Shown here: positions 10,418 through 55,029 of the stretch, in pieces
How positions within the stretch are numbered: the first letter of the stretch is position 1
Layout of the letters: every line of letters starts with the position of its first letter
NCBI RefSeq assembly: GCF_029958925.1
Contig: NZ_CP124616.1
Span: forward strand, 3,100,001 to 3,164,000
DNA length: 64,000 nt
DNA from: Tropicibacter oceani
GTDB taxonomy: Bacteria; Pseudomonadota; Alphaproteobacteria; Rhodobacterales; Rhodobacteraceae
Direction of reading: 5' to 3'
Notes under the pieces: model-generated
What the model saw: only the letters and a program-made list of their open reading frames with translations
Database searches by the model: none
Told to the model about the DNA's origin: nothing
Translations under genes and position numbers: made by a program

Positions 10418-10469
10418 GGGGGCGCTGCCCCCGCCTGCGGCCCCCCGGAGTATTTTCCCCAAGAAGAAG
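10418..10469 (-). repeat. dispersed intergenic repeat, copy B
   Basis: On the reverse strand it reads CTTCTTCTTGGGGAAAATAC, CTCCGGGGGG, a short GC spacer, and the hairpin GGGGGC-AGC-GCCCCC. It lies between the convergent HD hydrolase and lpd genes, so it may act as a shared terminator. Confidence 0.8.
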
Positions 10470-47818: not shown

Positions 47819-49651
47819 TCAGTACCCGCTGTCGGTGGTCAGAACAAAATGCCCCGGGCTGACCTCGTTGTACTCGGACGGCGCAGGCCGGTAGTCCACC
47901 GGGTGGATCGGCGACGGGATCGGCTTGAAGTTCAGGTCCTTCTCGGACTTGCGCTTGCGCGGATCGGCGATCGGCACCGCCTTCATCAGCGCCTGCGTAT
48001 AGGGGTGCTGCGGGTTCTCGAACACCGCCTGGCGCGGGCCCAGTTCCACGATCCGCCCCAGGTACATCACCCCGACATTGTGGCTGACCCGTTCGACCAC
48101 GGCCATGTCATGGCTGATGAACAGATATGACAGCCCCAGGTCGGCCTGCAGTTCCATCATCAGGTTCAGAACCTGCGCCTGCACAGACACGTCCAGCGCC
48201 GACACCGCCTCGTCCGAGACGATCAGCTTGGGGTTCAGCGCCAGCGCGCGGGCAATGGCGATCCGCTGCCGCTGTCCGCCCGACAATTCATGCGGATAGC
48301 GCCGCATGAAGCTGCGCGGCAGTTCCACCCGGTCAAACAGCCCCGCCACGCGGTCCATCACCGCGCTGCCGGTTTCTGTGCGATAGTTGTGGATCGGTTC
48401 CGCCACCTGGTCGGCCAGCTGCATCTGCGGGTTGAGCGAGGCAAAGGGATCCTGAAAGATCATCTGCATCTCGCGCCGTTCCTCGCGCAGCTGTTCTGCC
48501 GACAGCGCCATCACGTCGACGCCGTCCAGCTCGATCTTGCCTTTCATCGGCTCGACCAGCCGCAGGATCGACCGCCCGGCGCTGGATTTGCCGCAGCCCG
48601 ATTCCCCGACAAGGCTCAGCGTCTGGCCCTTGTTGATCGTGAAGGACACGTCCTCGACCGCGTGCACGTTCGAGATATGCCGCCGGAAGAACCCGCCCCG
48701 CACCGGAAAGCGCGTGGTCAGCCCCTGCACGTTCAGCAGAACCTTGTCCTGACCCTTGATCGGTTTGACCTCGGAGTCCTTGTGCCCCAGCAGGCGCATG
48801 GGTTCGGGCAGCGCCTTGCCGGTCATCTCGCCCAGCTTGGGCACCGCCGCCAAAAGCGCCTGGGTATAGGGATGCTGGGGCGATTCAAAGATCTGCTCGA
48901 CCCGGCCCTCTTCGACCTTGTTGCCACGGAACATCACGACGACGCGGTCAGCCATCTGGGCGACAACCGACATGTCGTGCGTGATGAACATCACCGCCGT
49001 GCCGGTTTCGCGTTTCAGCCGGTCGATCAGCGCCAGGATTTCCGCCTGGATGGTCACGTCCAGCGCGGTGGTGGGTTCGTCGGCGATCAGCAGGCGCGGC
49101 TCGCAGGCCAGGGCCATGGCGATCACCACGCGCTGGCGCATGCCGCCCGACAATTCATGCGGGTACTGTTTCAGCCGCCGCTCAGGCTCGGGGATGCGGA
49201 CCTGGCGCAGCAGTTCCAGCGCGCGGGCCTCGGCCTCGGCGCGGTTCATGCCCTTGTGCACCCGCAGCCCTTCGGTCAGCTGGCGGCCAACCGTGAACAC
49301 CGGGTTCAGCGCGGTCATGGGCTCCTGAAAGATCATGCCGATCTCGTTGCCGCGAATGCCGCGCATCATCCCCTGCCCGGTCTGCGCCAGATCGATTTCG
49401 CCGCCCTGCTTGCGCTCGAACAGCAGCCGGCCATTGGCAATTTCGCCGCCGCCGTATTCGACCAGCCGCATCAGCGACAGCGACGACACCGATTTGCCGG
49501 ACCCGGATTCGCCGACCACGCAGACCGTTTCGCCCGAGTTGATGTCAAAGGACACATCCTCGACCCCGACGACGGGGCCGTCCTTGGTCTGGAACTCGAC
49601 CCTGAGTTTCTCGATTCGGGCAATCGGCCCGCCTGTCGTGGAATCCAGCAT
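47819..49651 (-). CDS. dipeptide/oligopeptide ABC transporter ATPase with two nucleotide-binding domains
   Basis: From ATG 49651 (MLDSTTGGPIARIE), preceded by AAAGGA, the product is 610 aa; a start at 49666 lacks a ribosome binding site. It is a DppD-DppF fusion: the first domain has GESGSGKSVSSLSLM, LSGGMRQRVVIAMAL and LLIADEPTTALDVT; the second has GESGCGKSSAGRSIL, LSGGQRQRIAIARAL and LIVSDEAVSALDVS. Both domains end in oligopeptide-type extensions. It energises the two divergently encoded permeases. Confidence 0.92.
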   Translation of the reverse strand: MLDSTTGGPIARIEKLRVEFQTKDGPVVGVEDVSFDINSGETVCVVGESGSGKSVSSLSLMRLVEYGGGEIANGRLLFERKQGGEIDLAQTGQGMMRGIRGNEIGMIFQEPMTALNPVFTVGRQLTEGLRVHKGMNRAEAEARALELLRQVRIPEPERRLKQYPHELSGGMRQRVVIAMALACEPRLLIADEPTTALDVTIQAEILALIDRLKRETGTAVMFITHDMSVVAQMADRVVVMFRGNKVEEGRVEQIFESPQHPYTQALLAAVPKLGEMTGKALPEPMRLLGHKDSEVKPIKGQDKVLLNVQGLTTRFPVRGGFFRRHISNVHAVEDVSFTINKGQTLSLVGESGCGKSSAGRSILRLVEPMKGKIELDGVDVMALSAEQLREERREMQMIFQDPFASLNPQMQLADQVAEPIHNYRTETGSAVMDRVAGLFDRVELPRSFMRRYPHELSGGQRQRIAIARALALNPKLIVSDEAVSALDVSVQAQVLNLMMELQADLGLSYLFISHDMAVVERVSHNVGVMYLGRIVELGPRQAVFENPQHPYTQALMKAVPIADPRKRKSEKDLNFKPIPSPIHPVDYRPAPSEYNEVSPGHFVLTTDSGY

Positions 49652-49741
49652 GATTTGTCCTTTCATCGGCGCCCTGACGGTAAGGCCATGTTTTCAGCAC
49701 TGTCAAACGATCAACTGATTAACCCGAAGGCAATGCTTGCA

Positions 49742-49753
49742 ATTTGCGCAAAT
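49742..49753. promoter_or_regulatory. 12-bp palindrome in the divergent promoter region of the peptide transporter
   Basis: ATTTGCGCAAAT is a perfect palindrome 91 bases from the ATPase start and 150 bases from the binding-protein start. It is a candidate operator for whatever controls the two transcripts. The regulator is unknown. Confidence 0.4.
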
Positions 49754-49902
49754 CCTGTTTCGATGGGGGCAGAGTGGGGATGTGTTTGTTGCCTTGTGTT
49801 GCAGTCGGATCGGTTTCGGTCGATCTGTGCCATGGGCAAAACCCATACCCCGCCGCAAGCAACAAGAATCGGGCACAAGCCCGGTCCAACATGGAGTAAG
49901 AC

Positions 49903-51600
49903 ATGAAGCTCAAAACCCTCATGCTGGGGGCGGCCGCGTCCTTTGCGCTGGCCCCTGCCGCCTTTGCCGAACGCGGCGCGGACGGCGAAGTAAAGATCAT
50001 CTATTGGCAGGCGCCTTCGATCCTGAACCCCTTCCTGTCGGGCGGCACCAAGGACGTCGAATCCAGCTCGATGATCATCGAGCCGCTGCTGCGCTATGAC
50101 GAAACCGGCACGCTGGTGCCCTGGCTGGTCGACGAAATCCCGACGCTGGAAAACGGCGGTCTGACCGAGGACCTCAAGCAGCTGACCTACAAGCTGACCC
50201 CGGGCCTGAAATGGTCGGACGGCAGCGATTTCACCTCGGAAGACGTGAAATTCACCTACGAGTATTGCTCTCACCCCGAAGGCGGCTGCGCGCAGCTGAC
50301 CAAGTTCGAGGGCATCGCCTCGGTCGAGACGCCCGACGCGACCACCGTGGTGATCACCTACGAAAACCCGATGCCGAACCCCTACACCGCCTTTGTCGGC
50401 GGTGAGAGCCCGATCCTGCAAAAGGCGCAGTTCGCCGATTGCCTTGGCGCCGCGGCCTCGACCTGCACCGATCAGAACTTCAACCCGATCGGCACCGGCC
50501 CCTTCGTCGTCGACGAATTCAAGCCGAACGACGTGATCGTCATGTCCGCCAACCCCAACTACCGCGACCCGGCCAAGCCGGCCTTTGCCAAGGTCACCTT
50601 CAAAGGTGGCGGCGATGCGGCGGCGGCAGGCCGCGCGGTTCTTGAAACCGGCGAATTCGACTATGCCTGGAACCTTCAGCTGGCGCCCGACGTGATCGCC
50701 AAGATGGAAGAAGGCGGCAAAGGCACCCCGGTCGCAGGCTTTGGCCCGCTGCTGGAACGCATCATGCTGAACAACACCAACCCCAGCCCCGATCTGGGCC
50801 CTGACGAACGCTCGGTCGTGCGCCCGCACCCCTTCCTGAGCGATCCGGCCGTCTACAAGGCCATGTCCATGGCCATCGACCGCCCGCTGCTGGTCGAAGT
50901 CGGCTATGGCAAGGCCGGCCGCGTGTCCTGTTCCTGGGTTCCGGCACCCGAAGCATTCGCCATCGAGGTCGAAGGCTGTGACGTGCAGGATCTCGAAGGC
51001 GCCAAGGCCATGCTGGATGCCGCCGGGATCGTCGACACCGATGGTGACGGCGTGCGCGAAAAGGACGGCGTTCCGCTGTCGATCCTTTACCAGACCTCGA
51101 CCAACGCCGTGCGTCAGGACTTCCAGGCTCTGATCAAGGATTGGTGGGAACAGATCGGCATGGAAGTCGAACTGCGAAACATCGACGGGTCGGTCTTCTT
51201 TGGCGGTGACGCGGGTTCCCCCGACACCTTCCAGAAGTTCTATGCCGACGTCGAAATGTACGCCAACACCTTTAACGGCACTGACCCGCAGGCCTACCTG
51301 GGCAACGGTCTGTGCGACAAGGCACCGCGTCCCGACACCCAGTGGCAGGGTGAGAACATCAGCCGCTTCTGCGACGAAGAGTATGACGCCCTGCACAAGC
51401 AGCTGTCGGAAACCGCCGACATGGCCGAGCGTCAGCGCATCGGCAAGGAACTCAGCCGCATCGCCTTCGAGCGCGGTTCGCTGATCCCGCTGGTGCACCG
51501 TGGCCGTCTGTCGGCACACGCCACTTCGCTGGGCGGCGTCAAGCTGAACGTCTGGGACTCCGAACTGTGGAACGTCGCCGACTGGTATCGCATCAAGTGA
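49903..51600 (+). CDS. peptide ABC transporter substrate-binding protein
   Basis: The 565-aa periplasmic protein has a Sec signal peptide (residues 1-22, cleavage after AFA) and the family-5 extracellular solute-binding pattern: IIEPLLRYDETGTLVPWLVD, LKWSDGSDFTSEDVKFTYEY and AMSIMA-type helices (YKAMSMAIDRPLLVEVGYG). The ligand is probably a peptide or acylated amino acid. A strong hairpin (51645-51671) follows, before the permease genes, which would let this gene be expressed above the permeases. Confidence 0.92.
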   Translation: MKLKTLMLGAAASFALAPAAFAERGADGEVKIIYWQAPSILNPFLSGGTKDVESSSMIIEPLLRYDETGTLVPWLVDEIPTLENGGLTEDLKQLTYKLTPGLKWSDGSDFTSEDVKFTYEYCSHPEGGCAQLTKFEGIASVETPDATTVVITYENPMPNPYTAFVGGESPILQKAQFADCLGAAASTCTDQNFNPIGTGPFVVDEFKPNDVIVMSANPNYRDPAKPAFAKVTFKGGGDAAAAGRAVLETGEFDYAWNLQLAPDVIAKMEEGGKGTPVAGFGPLLERIMLNNTNPSPDLGPDERSVVRPHPFLSDPAVYKAMSMAIDRPLLVEVGYGKAGRVSCSWVPAPEAFAIEVEGCDVQDLEGAKAMLDAAGIVDTDGDGVREKDGVPLSILYQTSTNAVRQDFQALIKDWWEQIGMEVELRNIDGSVFFGGDAGSPDTFQKFYADVEMYANTFNGTDPQAYLGNGLCDKAPRPDTQWQGENISRFCDEEYDALHKQLSETADMAERQRIGKELSRIAFERGSLIPLVHRGRLSAHATSLGGVKLNVWDSELWNVADWYRIK

Positions 51601-51607
51601 TCCAGGT

Positions 51608-51628
51608 GGGCGGGGTATGTCCCCGCCC
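51608..51628 (+). terminator. first hairpin after the binding-protein gene
   Basis: The arms GGGCGGGG and CCCCGCCC flank TATGT. It begins seven bases after the stop codon and precedes the longer hairpin at 51645. Confidence 0.6.
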
Positions 51629-51644
51629 CGCTGACCGACCTCCC

Positions 51645-51671
51645 GAAGGGCGGGGCCATGCCCCGCCCTTC
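51645..51671 (+). terminator. 12-bp hairpin between binding protein and permease genes
   Basis: The arms GAAGGGCGGGGC and GCCCCGCCCTTC flank CAT, and the structure ends 40 bases before the permease ATG. This is likely an mRNA-stabilising or attenuating hairpin that reduces read-through into the permease genes. Confidence 0.75.
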
Positions 51672-51711
51672 GTTCCCCAAAGAAACCAGAAACTACTGAC
51701 CCGAGGCGCCG

Positions 51712-52719
51712 ATGCTCTCCTACGCCCTTCGACGATTGCTGTTGTCAATCCCGACGCTTTTGTTCATCAGTTTCGTGATCTTCATGCTGTTGCAACTTGC
51801 CCCCGGCGATCCCATGGCCGAGGTGCCCCTGACCGTCCCCGACGAGGTCAAGCAAAAGATGCGCGAGGCGCTTGGCGTCGGTCAGCCGCCCCTGGTGCAA
51901 TACTGGAAATGGCTGGTGCAGGTGTTCTGGATCGAACCGCAGGTGCTGTTCGACTATGCCTTTGGCACCGACTTTTCCGAAGGCAAGCAGCGCGTGATTT
52001 CCTGGCAGACCCGCAGCCCGGTCATGGATATCGTCGTGCAGCGCATCCCGCAGACCCTGTGGGTCGTGGGCGTCGCCTATATCGTCGCCATCCTGATCGC
52101 CATTCCGGTCGGCATCTATTCGGCCTATCGCCAGTATTCGGTCTTTGATCAGGCTGGCACCTTTGTCACCATGATCGGCTTTTCGATCCCGCCGTTCTTT
52201 ACCGGCCCGCTGCTGATCGTGATCTTTTCGGTGCAACTCGGCTGGCTGCCCTCGATCTATGACACCACCCACGTCGTGCGCGACTGGGCATCGTTCAAGG
52301 TGCAGCTTATGCAGATGGTCATGCCCGTCATGGTGCTGGCCCTGCAGATCACCGCGCAGCTGTCGCGCTACATGCGCGCCACCATGCTTGACAACCTCAA
52401 CCAGGATTACGTGCGCACCGCCCGCGCCAAGGGCCTGAGCGAGGCGGTTGTCGTCATGGTCCACGTGCTGCGCAACTCGATGATCCCGGTGGTCACGGTC
52501 ATCGCCCTTGGCATTCCGTCGATCTTTGGCGGCGCCATCATCACCGAGAACGTGTTCAAGGTGAACGGCATCGGCCAGCTGCTGCTGACCTGGCTGTTCG
52601 CCAACGACCTGCCCGGCGTCATGACGCTGACCTTCATCTTTGCGGTGCTCATCGTGATGTTCAACCTGATTGCCGATATCCTCTATGGCATCCTTGACCC
52701 GAGGATCCGCTATGACTGA
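51712..52719 (+). CDS. peptide ABC transporter permease (DppB-like)
   Basis: The 335-aa protein has six transmembrane segments, the first at residues 9-30 (SIPTLLFISFVIFMLLQLAP), and the binding-protein-dependent permease motif MLDNLNQDYVRTARAKGLSE (EAA loop). This is the DppB subtype. It overlaps the second permease gene by eight bases. Partner of the two-domain ATPase on the opposite strand. Confidence 0.92.
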   Translation: MLSYALRRLLLSIPTLLFISFVIFMLLQLAPGDPMAEVPLTVPDEVKQKMREALGVGQPPLVQYWKWLVQVFWIEPQVLFDYAFGTDFSEGKQRVISWQTRSPVMDIVVQRIPQTLWVVGVAYIVAILIAIPVGIYSAYRQYSVFDQAGTFVTMIGFSIPPFFTGPLLIVIFSVQLGWLPSIYDTTHVVRDWASFKVQLMQMVMPVMVLALQITAQLSRYMRATMLDNLNQDYVRTARAKGLSEAVVVMVHVLRNSMIPVVTVIALGIPSIFGGAIITENVFKVNGIGQLLLTWLFANDLPGVMTLTFIFAVLIVMFNLIADILYGILDPRIRYD

Positions 52720-53692
52720 GCCCATGCCCGCCACCCCCAACCCGATCGAAGCGCTCAAGGACAAGGGCCCGATGGCCCCGCCCAGATCGCGCAAAAAGGA
52801 CGTCTGGGACCAGTTCCGCAAGCACAAGGGCGCGATGTTCGGCCTTGGGTTCCTGATCTTCATCACGCTGGTGGTGCTGATCGGCCCCTATATCTGGACG
52901 GTCGATCCGCAGAAACTGGACATCCGGTCCAAGGACATGCGCCCGATCTACACCGCGCTGTGGGACAGCGACGCCAAGACCGGCTGGAACAAGCCGCTTG
53001 GCTCGGACCAGCTTGGCCGCGACAACCTGGCCCAGATCATTGCCGGTGGGCGTGCCTCGCTGGCGGTGGGCTGGGCGGCGATGATCCTCAGCCTTGTCAT
53101 CGGCACGGCGATCGGCGTTCTGGCCGGGTTCTTCCGCAGGATCGACGGGCTCTTGATGCGCACCACCGATCTGTTCCTTGCCCTGCCGATCCTGCCGCTG
53201 CTGCTGCTGGCTGTGACGCTGTTCCGGCAACCGCTGCGTACCCTGGCCGGACCAGAGGGCGGCATGTTCATCCTGATCGTCACGATCATCGCCATCACAT
53301 CGTGGATGCCCACGGCGCGCATCGTGCGCGGCGACGTGCTGGCGATCAAGGAACGCGAATTCGTCCTGGCCGCACGGTCCATCGGCACCACGAACGGCAA
53401 GATCATCCGCAAACACCTGCTGCCCAACGTGCTGTCGCCGATCATGGTCTCGGCGGCGCTGGGTCTGGCCACCGCCATCATCACCGAAAGCGCGCTGAGC
53501 TTCCTTGGCGTCGGCTTCCCCTCGGACTTCCCGACCTGGGGCAAGATGCTGGCCGATGCGGTGGTGCGGATGGAGCAATTCCCCGAACGCGTGCTGCTGC
53601 CCGGATTCGCCATCTCGCTGACCGTCCTGTCGGTCAACTACATCGGCGACGGGCTGCGCGACGCGCTCGATCCGCGCATTCGCGGGCGCTAA
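52712..53692 (+). CDS. peptide ABC transporter permease (DppC-like)
   Basis: From ATG 52712 (MTEPMPATPNPIEALKDKG) the product is 326 aa with an N-terminal tail, a membrane anchor (GLGFLIFITLVVLIGPYIW) and five more transmembrane segments. SDQLGRDNLAQIIAGGRASL and the EAA loop REFVLAARSIGTTNGKIIRKHLLP are DppC signatures. It overlaps the DppB-like gene and ends the operon with an intrinsic terminator. Confidence 0.92.
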   Translation: MTEPMPATPNPIEALKDKGPMAPPRSRKKDVWDQFRKHKGAMFGLGFLIFITLVVLIGPYIWTVDPQKLDIRSKDMRPIYTALWDSDAKTGWNKPLGSDQLGRDNLAQIIAGGRASLAVGWAAMILSLVIGTAIGVLAGFFRRIDGLLMRTTDLFLALPILPLLLLAVTLFRQPLRTLAGPEGGMFILIVTIIAITSWMPTARIVRGDVLAIKEREFVLAARSIGTTNGKIIRKHLLPNVLSPIMVSAALGLATAIITESALSFLGVGFPSDFPTWGKMLADAVVRMEQFPERVLLPGFAISLTVLSVNYIGDGLRDALDPRIRGR

Positions 53693-53725
53693 GCGAAATA
53701 AGGACAGCGATGTTCCAGCCTCACG

Positions 53726-53762: not shown

Positions 53763-53775
53763 GGAACATTGATCC
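53763..53775. promoter_or_regulatory. 13-bp operator-like dyad, copy 1
   Basis: GGAACATTGATCC differs by one base from the perfect copy at 53867. Centre at 53769. Confidence 0.6.
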
Positions 53776-53793
53776 GGGCGCAGACAGGAAATC

Positions 53794-53806
53794 AGAACAC
53801 TGTTCC
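53794..53806. promoter_or_regulatory. 13-bp operator-like dyad, copy 2
   Basis: AGAACACTGTTCC keeps the GAACA/TGTTC arms. Its centre (53800) is 31 bases from copy 1. Confidence 0.65.
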
Positions 53807-53866
53807 AGCTACCCCCTGCACACCTATATCACAAGCGCTTGCCAGCCCAGCAAAAAGCCCTTCATA

Positions 53867-53879
53867 GGAACATTGTTCC
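53867..53879. promoter_or_regulatory. 13-bp operator-like dyad, copy 3
   Basis: GGAACATTGTTCC is a perfect dyad around a single base. It ends 18 bases before the transporter ATG and its centre is 73 bases from copy 2. An isolated half-site TGTTCC also occurs at 53711. Confidence 0.7.
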
Positions 53880-53897
53880 AAACCCGGAGGCAGTTCC

Positions 53898-54941
53898 ATG
53901 TTCGAATCTTTTGGCTTCGAAACCCTTACAGCGCCGCAAGCGGTCGTCTATTTCGCCCTCGCCCTTGGCGCCCTGTTCGGCGTCTTCGCCGAGCAGACCA
54001 GGTTCTGCTTTCGCCGCGCCCTGATCGGGACGGACCGCCGCGCCGCCATGGGCGTCTGGCTGACGGCCCTGGCCTTTGCTCTTGTCGGCACTCAGGCGGC
54101 TGTCGCGATGGAGTGGATCTCGTTCGGGGATCACCGCTTCATGGCGGCTGACCTGCCCCTGCTGGCCATCCTCGCCGGAGGCCTGCTGTTCGGCGCCGGC
54201 ATGGTGCTGACCCGTGGTTGCGCCTCGCGGCTGACGGTGCTGGCCGGCAGCGGCAACCTGCGCGCCTTTACCGTTCTGGCGGTCTTTGCCGTCGTCGCCC
54301 ATGCCACGCTCAAGGGCGTTCTGGCCCCGGTGCGCACGACGCTCTCTGCTCCGACGCTGGCGCTGGATTCGGCCGCCCTGCCCGGCAACCCGCTGATCTG
54401 GACGGCCCTGCTGGGCACCGCCGCGCTGGCCTTTGCCTTTCGGTCGGGCAACCGCCCCGTCACGCTGATCCTGGCGGCGGCCCTTGGCCTGCTGGTCCCG
54501 CTTGGCTGGGTCGGCACCGGCTTTGTGCTTTTCGATGACTTCGACCCGATCGTCATGGAAAGCCTCAGCTTCACCTCGACCTGGAGCGAGACGCTGTTCT
54601 ACACCGTCGCCGCAACCTCGATCCCCGCAGGCTTTGGCGCCGGGCTGATCGGCGGCGTGCTGCTGGGCGCCCTCGCCTCGTCGCTGGCCGCGCGCCGTTT
54701 CGAATGGCAAAGCTTCTCCACCCCGGCACAAACCGGCCGCTACCTGGCAGGCGCAGTGCTGATGGGCATCGGCGGCGTGCTGGCTGGCGGCTGCACCGTG
54801 GGCGCGGGTCTGTCGGGCATCCCGACGCTCAGCATCGCGGCACTGTTGACCCTTGCGTCCATCGCTGCGGGCGCACTGGCAACCAACGCCGCCCTGTCGC
54901 GCAAGGCCCAAGGCACCCTGACCGCCGTTCCGGCAGAATAA
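53898..54941 (+). CDS. YeeE/YedE-family transporter (TsuA-like thiosulfate/sulfur uptake)
   Basis: The 347-aa membrane protein has about nine or ten hydrophobic segments and the three conserved cysteines of TsuA-type YeeE proteins: C37 in TRFCFRRALIG, C108 in LTRGCASRLTVLAGSGN and C299 in AGGCTVGAGLSG. In the known TsuA structure such cysteines relay thiosulfate through the membrane. The gene stands alone between the peptide transporter and a convergent DUF3422 gene, with GGAGG 8 bases before its ATG and a cluster of 13-bp dyads upstream. Confidence 0.88.
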   Translation: MFESFGFETLTAPQAVVYFALALGALFGVFAEQTRFCFRRALIGTDRRAAMGVWLTALAFALVGTQAAVAMEWISFGDHRFMAADLPLLAILAGGLLFGAGMVLTRGCASRLTVLAGSGNLRAFTVLAVFAVVAHATLKGVLAPVRTTLSAPTLALDSAALPGNPLIWTALLGTAALAFAFRSGNRPVTLILAAALGLLVPLGWVGTGFVLFDDFDPIVMESLSFTSTWSETLFYTVAATSIPAGFGAGLIGGVLLGALASSLAARRFEWQSFSTPAQTGRYLAGAVLMGIGGVLAGGCTVGAGLSGIPTLSIAALLTLASIAAGALATNAALSRKAQGTLTAVPAE

Positions 54942-54949
54942 CCCGGCCC

Positions 54950-55007
54950 TTCTTCTTGGCCAAAATACTCCGGGGGAGTCGCCGCAGGCGACGGGGGCAG
55001 CGCCCCC
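54950..55007 (+). repeat. dispersed intergenic repeat, copy E
   Basis: It reads TTCTTCTTGGCCAAAATACT, CCGGGGGA, the small stem GTCGC-CGCAG-GCGAC, then GGGGGC-AGC-GCCCCC. It lies between the convergent YeeE and DUF3422 genes. Confidence 0.88.
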
Positions 55008-55029
55008 ATCCCCGGCCCGTCACAAGCCT

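Follow-up and report, generated by a model that had tools for sequence, protein, structure and literature searches.

Which protein controls a YeeE/YedE-family transporter gene that is preceded by three short palindromes? The question is raised by a 64,000-nucleotide stretch of the Tropicibacter oceani genome (contig NZ_CP124616.1), hereafter the window, in which a sequence-only reading had picked out three 13-bp dyads upstream of the gene, yeeE. The elements discussed below are as follows.

53763..53775, no strand: distal dyad GGAACATTGATCC, 1 mismatch, centre 53769
53794..53806, no strand: central dyad AGAACACTGTTCC, 1 mismatch, centre 53800
53838..53844, plus strand: CTTGCCA, -35-like element, a conserved block in the anchored alignment with consensus CTTGAT in relatives
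53862..53867, plus strand: TCATAG, poor -10-like hexamer, position by spacing, block moderately conserved
53867..53879, no strand: proximal dyad GGAACATTGTTCC, exact match, centre 53873
53886..53890, plus strand: GGAGG, ribosome-binding-site-like, direct reading
53898..54941, plus strand: yeeE, YeeE/YedE-family (Sulf_transp, PF04143) transporter, 347 aa, Pfam 166 bits

Three phased dyads in the yeeE promoter region

Re-reading of the sequence gave the same positions, centres and spacings for the three dyads as had been reported, the motif searched being the 13-bp GGAACA-N-TGTTCC with an aligned consensus like GGRAANNNNTTCC. The centres are 31 and 73 bp apart, i.e., 2.95 and 6.95 turns at 10.5 bp per turn, and the proposed placement of all sites on one helix face is borne out by these near-whole turns and by the retention of the 73-bp spacing in orthologues. 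The genome-wide search for GGAACA-N-TGTTCC that the sequence-only reading had suggested returned six places in the 4.15-Mb genome at no more than one mismatch, and three of these fall within the 117 bp of the array. The 73-bp dyad pair, with up to three mismatches over 16 positions, occurs at 11 places in the genome, and with fewer than three mismatches only at the yeeE array. It can be given almost no weight that the dyads are a functionless chance likeness of short palindromes. Single dyads with three mismatches do occur across the whole window at the rate expected from shuffled sequence (20 versus 20.8, without excess), but genome-wide matches cluster at the array and the array is conserved across genera, the latter refuting a chance origin. 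A TGTTCC at 53711, previously offered as a fourth half-site, was dropped; it is not conserved, lies outside the conserved footprint and is one of 45 TGTTCC/GGAACA hexamers in the window.

The CTTGAT block suits a -35 element and may well have that promoter role, and TCATAG, which follows the -35-like element by 17 bp and abuts the proximal dyad, would then be the putative -10. With this assignment, the proximal dyad would overlie the transcription start.

That a YeeE/YedE transporter lies downstream of the dyads is upheld by the match of its product to PF04143 (166 bits, cut-off 27), which places it in the family. In an alignment with the solved structure of S. thermophila TsuA (6leo), its FCFRR, RGCAS and GGCTV stretches fall on cysteine-bearing segments. 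Scores against the NCBIfam equivalog models for the TsuA thiosulfate transporter are far below their cut-offs (78 of 400 and 43 of 645 bits).

Neighbourhood of yeeE and its paralogues

No regulator family recurs beside yeeE among about 70 orthologous loci, in keeping with the earlier remark that no regulator gene adjoins it. Genes commonly found next to it encode a peptide-type ABC transporter, DUF3422 and a pair of proteins that, by sequence reading, resemble NAD(P) transhydrogenase. In the window, the ABC transporter (family-5 binding protein, two permeases and a double ATPase) occupies 47819-53692, directly upstream of yeeE, and about half of the orthologous loci also have it next to yeeE. 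The promoter of these peptide-ABC genes shows no dyads; the substrate of the transporter might be a sulfur-containing peptide.

An ArsR-type (SoxR/SqrR-like) regulator would be expected to have its gene nearby, and no arsR gene is conserved beside the studied yeeE at the approximately 70 loci. A YeeE paralogue elsewhere in the genome (L231, G000:C1:3790500-3796500) does lie beside a putative ArsR-type regulator, together with thioredoxin-like and CcdA-like proteins, all by sequence reading. No dyads lie upstream of the genome's other two YeeE paralogues, the L231 copy included. Given that the L231 paralogue has an ArsR-type neighbour and lacks dyads, the YeeE copies of this genome seem to be run by different regulators.

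Conservation of the array among orthologues

The sequence-only reading would have been overturned by a lack of motif conservation upstream of orthologues; we looked for this in yeeE orthologues and flanks drawn from genome contigs and from relatives, and the motif held up. Relative to the start codon, the dyads are found again near -135, -104 and -31. With at least six of eight core bases required per dyad, the central and proximal dyads form a pair at exactly 73 bp in 39 of 66 yeeE orthologues, from Roseobacter-group genera; at the other spacings between 15 and 129 bp, a median of one orthologue in 66 has a pair, and about 40% of the orthologues are without a clear 73-bp pair. When 43 promoters were aligned on the pair, conservation stood out in islands, namely the central and proximal dyads, a weaker distal dyad, CTTGAT and a short stretch ahead of the proximal dyad. 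Little is conserved in the remaining DNA between sites. These promoters were picked by their pair, so that conservation of the pair is in-sample, while the distal dyad and CTTGAT played no part in the choice. The proximal dyad is the most conserved of the three and the central dyad is strongly conserved, while the distal dyad, found 30-31 bp upstream of the central one in relatives, has the weakest conservation and is the most degenerate.

Across 296 genomes of the family, a two-dyad pattern with the spacing fixed at 73 bp was found in 13, compared with 1 for a control pattern, and 10 of these 13 pairs are yeeE promoters. A matrix search of 840 kb of yeeE loci at 14 bits or more gave 69 matches in the 170 bp ahead of the gene and 8 at other positions, a count that is in-sample for yeeE; three of the eight outlying matches sit about 200 bp before yeeE. 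In three orthologues (L060, L052 and L075) a strong dyad lies about 200 bp upstream of the start codon taken for yeeE, instead of at -104 or -31, an offset that suggests a misplaced start codon or a longer leader. Conservation of the array extends through a family of mostly marine bacteria, and comparison of these sequences supports reading the dyads as a conserved operator-like array of yeeE with helical phasing.

A candidate regulator beside sulfate-assimilation genes

The core of the motif first brought to mind an IclR-family regulator. The dyads carry GGAA-N5-TTCC, which matches the E. coli IclR (TGGAAATNATTTCCA) and AllR motifs (PMC8222616, motif table). This idea was dropped, as the genome has two IclR_C genes and neither has sites upstream or nearby, and one of the two sits in an apparent alpha-galactoside uptake operon; we regard an IclR-family protein as a highly improbable binder of the dyads.

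A different candidate is encoded outside the window by an Lrp/AsnC gene (L203, G000:C1:2433149-2433601; lrp below), the product of which carries PF13404/PF13412 (HTH) and PF01037 (RAM) domains. The genome has 12 AsnC-type genes, and this is the only one preceded by several good copies of the motif, AGGAAATTGTCCC and GGACATATGTTCT, placed 42 bp apart. Divergent from it are genes for uroporphyrinogen-III methyltransferase, DUF2849, sulfite/nitrite reductase, PAPS reductase and DUF934, which make up the siroheme/cysI/cysH sulfate-assimilation operon (the cys operon). It is the presence of yeeE-type sites before a regulator gene that itself lies next to sulfate-assimilation genes that makes this Lrp protein a candidate switch.

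The motif shared by the two promoters was tested in both directions. A matrix trained on yeeE sites only reached at least 12 bits within 200 bp upstream of lrp in 29 of 30 genomes; control windows at the same lrp loci gave a mean of 0.08 of 30 (maximum 1), and palindrome-preserving permuted matrices a mean of 0.38, although one of 500 got 19. Conversely, the lrp-trained matrix reached at least 12 bits in 48 of 66 yeeE promoters versus none in gene-internal windows. The sites before lrp lie at 0, +42 and about +72, and the lrp site is retained in genomes without a close yeeE orthologue (G002, G004, G006 and others). The features looked for in an Lrp/AsnC-type array, namely imperfect palindromes of 13-17 bp, sites on one helix face and a motif before the regulator's own gene, are all found: the dyads are 13 bp, the 31-, 42- and 73-bp spacings are conserved, and the motif precedes the Lrp/AsnC gene in 29 of the 30 genomes. 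In a search of 12 genomes for dyads paired at 42 bp, the matches besides two lrp promoters were nine chance-like ones, fewer than for the control pattern, and these were set aside.

Each of the 30 genomes tested has orthologues of this Lrp protein, with 67-100% identity (paralogues below 50%), and the recognition helix SSKTPVWNRIRKM is nearly invariant among them. A divergent CobA lies within the 1.5-kb flank in 18 of the 30 genomes. For the remaining 12, the translations of ten were read (all but L252 and L257), and in nine the frames on the divergent side read as DUF2849, sulfite reductase or, in L240, probably ferredoxin-NADP reductase as in G000; these names come from sequence reading rather than a family scan. 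The divergent frame of the orthologue in L258 was not readable, and a precorrin-2-dehydrogenase-like frame is the first on the divergent side in some genomes.

Taken on these sequence grounds, the Lrp protein encoded by L203 is very probably the binder of the yeeE dyads. A common motif by itself names no binder, and the cys operon is preceded by these sites just as lrp is. Some other, unlinked sulfur regulator might occupy the yeeE array as well as the region between lrp and cys, with lrp merely one of its targets. We consider this unlikely, since the Lrp gene is found beside the presumed sites in 30 of 30 genomes, autoregulation is usual in the Lrp family, and 13-bp sites with 31-bp phasing suit Lrp proteins (PMC2995911). 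The position of the same motif between the Lrp/AsnC gene and the cys operon also backs the sulfur link in the earlier proposal of cooperative or looping repression by a sulfur-responsive regulator; the looping part of that proposal gives way here to a proposed wrapped complex of several Lrp-type dimers. Binding sites of the Lrp family are often degenerate, and the sharp motif seen here is accordingly somewhat unusual for an Lrp protein.

A possible wider regulon

Pattern searches of the genome were used to look for further targets. The strict pattern occurs at 24 places in the own genome, two in yeeE and one in lrp-cys. Two others are suggestive only as predicted regulon members: a single intergenic site between an O-acetylhomoserine sulfhydrylase-like (metY-like) gene and an unnamed gene (L282), and a double site, within a possible repeat, before a putative Cys/Met-metabolism PLP-enzyme gene (L287). 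Several further intergenic places have no sulfur link. A perfect GGAATCGGATTCC between TusA-like and CcdA-like genes (L223:983, G000 about C1:2996682) was rejected; it is a single site with a low matrix score (7.9) and is probably due to chance.

A separate sequence element was noted after yeeE, where TTGGCCAAAATACTCC followed by a G/C-rich inverted repeat occupies window positions 54956-55015. Near copies also occur at 10447 and 47760 (three in the window versus 0.03 expected), and similar sequence follows the lrp gene and lies near L287. This is a recurrent intergenic element, perhaps a terminator-like one.

Geometry and proposed mechanism

The cys promoter has upstream sites 42 and about 73 bp from the proximal site of its structural gene; in the yeeE promoter the corresponding distances are 73 and 104 bp. 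Positions 42, 73 and 104 form one 31-bp lattice common to both promoters, which meets the need of a chain of dimers on one face of the DNA. The spacings differ, with 42 + 31 bp in the cys promoter and 31 + 73 in that of yeeE, and the two arrays are thus not identical.

We propose the following mechanism for the control of yeeE. One dimer of the Lrp/AsnC-family regulator would bind each dyad, and the same-face dimers, 31 and 73 bp apart, would cooperate and wrap about 117 bp of DNA, from about -105 to the start site. We think it fairly likely that the array DNA is wrapped. The dimer at the proximal site would cover the -10/start region, with the central and distal dimers stabilising it through wrapping. 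A plentiful supply of reduced sulfur, probably sensed as cysteine or a metabolite related to it, would keep yeeE repressed, and sulfur limitation would release the gene together with the cys operon. An effector of the cysteine type is an evenly balanced guess.

The sign of the regulation deserves separate consideration. An Lrp protein acting as an activator or dual regulator could recruit RNA polymerase through dimers at the central (about -74) and distal (about -105) sites, with the proximal site only tuning the response. The poor -10 hexamer would equally suit an activated promoter, sites lie upstream of the -35, and CyuR, an Lrp-family cysteine regulator, acts dually (PMC11408624). On the other hand, the best-conserved dyad overlaps the presumed start site, where bound protein would block initiation, and we hold activation to be the less probable mode, with dual action of the CyuR kind as the main alternative to repression. 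Repression rather than activation of yeeE is, with reasonable probability, what the array would bring about. The best explanation as a whole, which the sequence evidence makes likely, combines an Lrp-type protein, cooperating dimers, wrapping and repression of yeeE when reduced sulfur is ample. We also lean, somewhat less firmly, towards the broader view that a previously undescribed Lrp-family protein is a sulfur-assimilation regulator of the Roseobacter group, forming the same 31-bp-lattice complex at the unlinked cys/lrp and yeeE promoters.

Comparison with known systems

Lrp-family dimers bind palindromes of 13-17 bp that are in register at two or three helical turns; in the case of Ss-LrpB, three dimers wrap about 100 bp of DNA (PMC2995911). 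The closest likeness is to the Ss-LrpB control region of Sulfolobus, with its three dimers, helically aligned sites and about 100 bp of wrapped DNA (PMC2995911). However, Ss-LrpB is archaeal and acts at its own gene's promoter, whereas the array described here is in an unlinked transporter promoter, includes one 73-bp gap and would be wrapped only by inference. The fixed geometry and the matching second promoter would provide a setting in which the question of wrapping versus looping can be put to an Lrp-type protein.

A second likeness is to E. coli CyuR/DecR (YbaO), an Lrp-family protein of sulfur amino-acid metabolism with a palindrome before its own gene (PMC11408624). CyuR recognises a 23-bp motif, GAAwAAATTGTxGxxATTTsyCC, and targets cysteine degradation (PMC11408624), in contrast to the 13-bp GGAACA-N-TGTTCC and the sulfate-assimilation and uptake genes found here. 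TsuA/YeeE and SoxT share the transporter family and sulfur-linked regulation (PMC11073785, PMC11582611) but are ArsR-regulated or lie beside yeeD/sox genes (PMC11073785, PMC11582611), neither of which adjoins the studied yeeE.

An Lrp operator array is a known kind of control element, while the regulator, motif and regulon assigned here seem to be new. The Lrp-family regulator is conserved yet apparently unstudied; the open-access full texts searched contained no account of it and no Lrp-type regulator of cys genes in alphaproteobacteria. A testable regulator is thereby named for sulfur uptake and assimilation in a group important to the marine sulfur cycle. The regulon would be akin to that of enterobacterial CysB in that sulfate assimilation and thiosulfate-type uptake would be co-controlled, although CysB is a LysR-type activator and the candidate here is of Lrp/AsnC type. 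If the proposal is true, an Lrp-family protein fills in the Roseobacter group the role that CysB has in enterobacteria.
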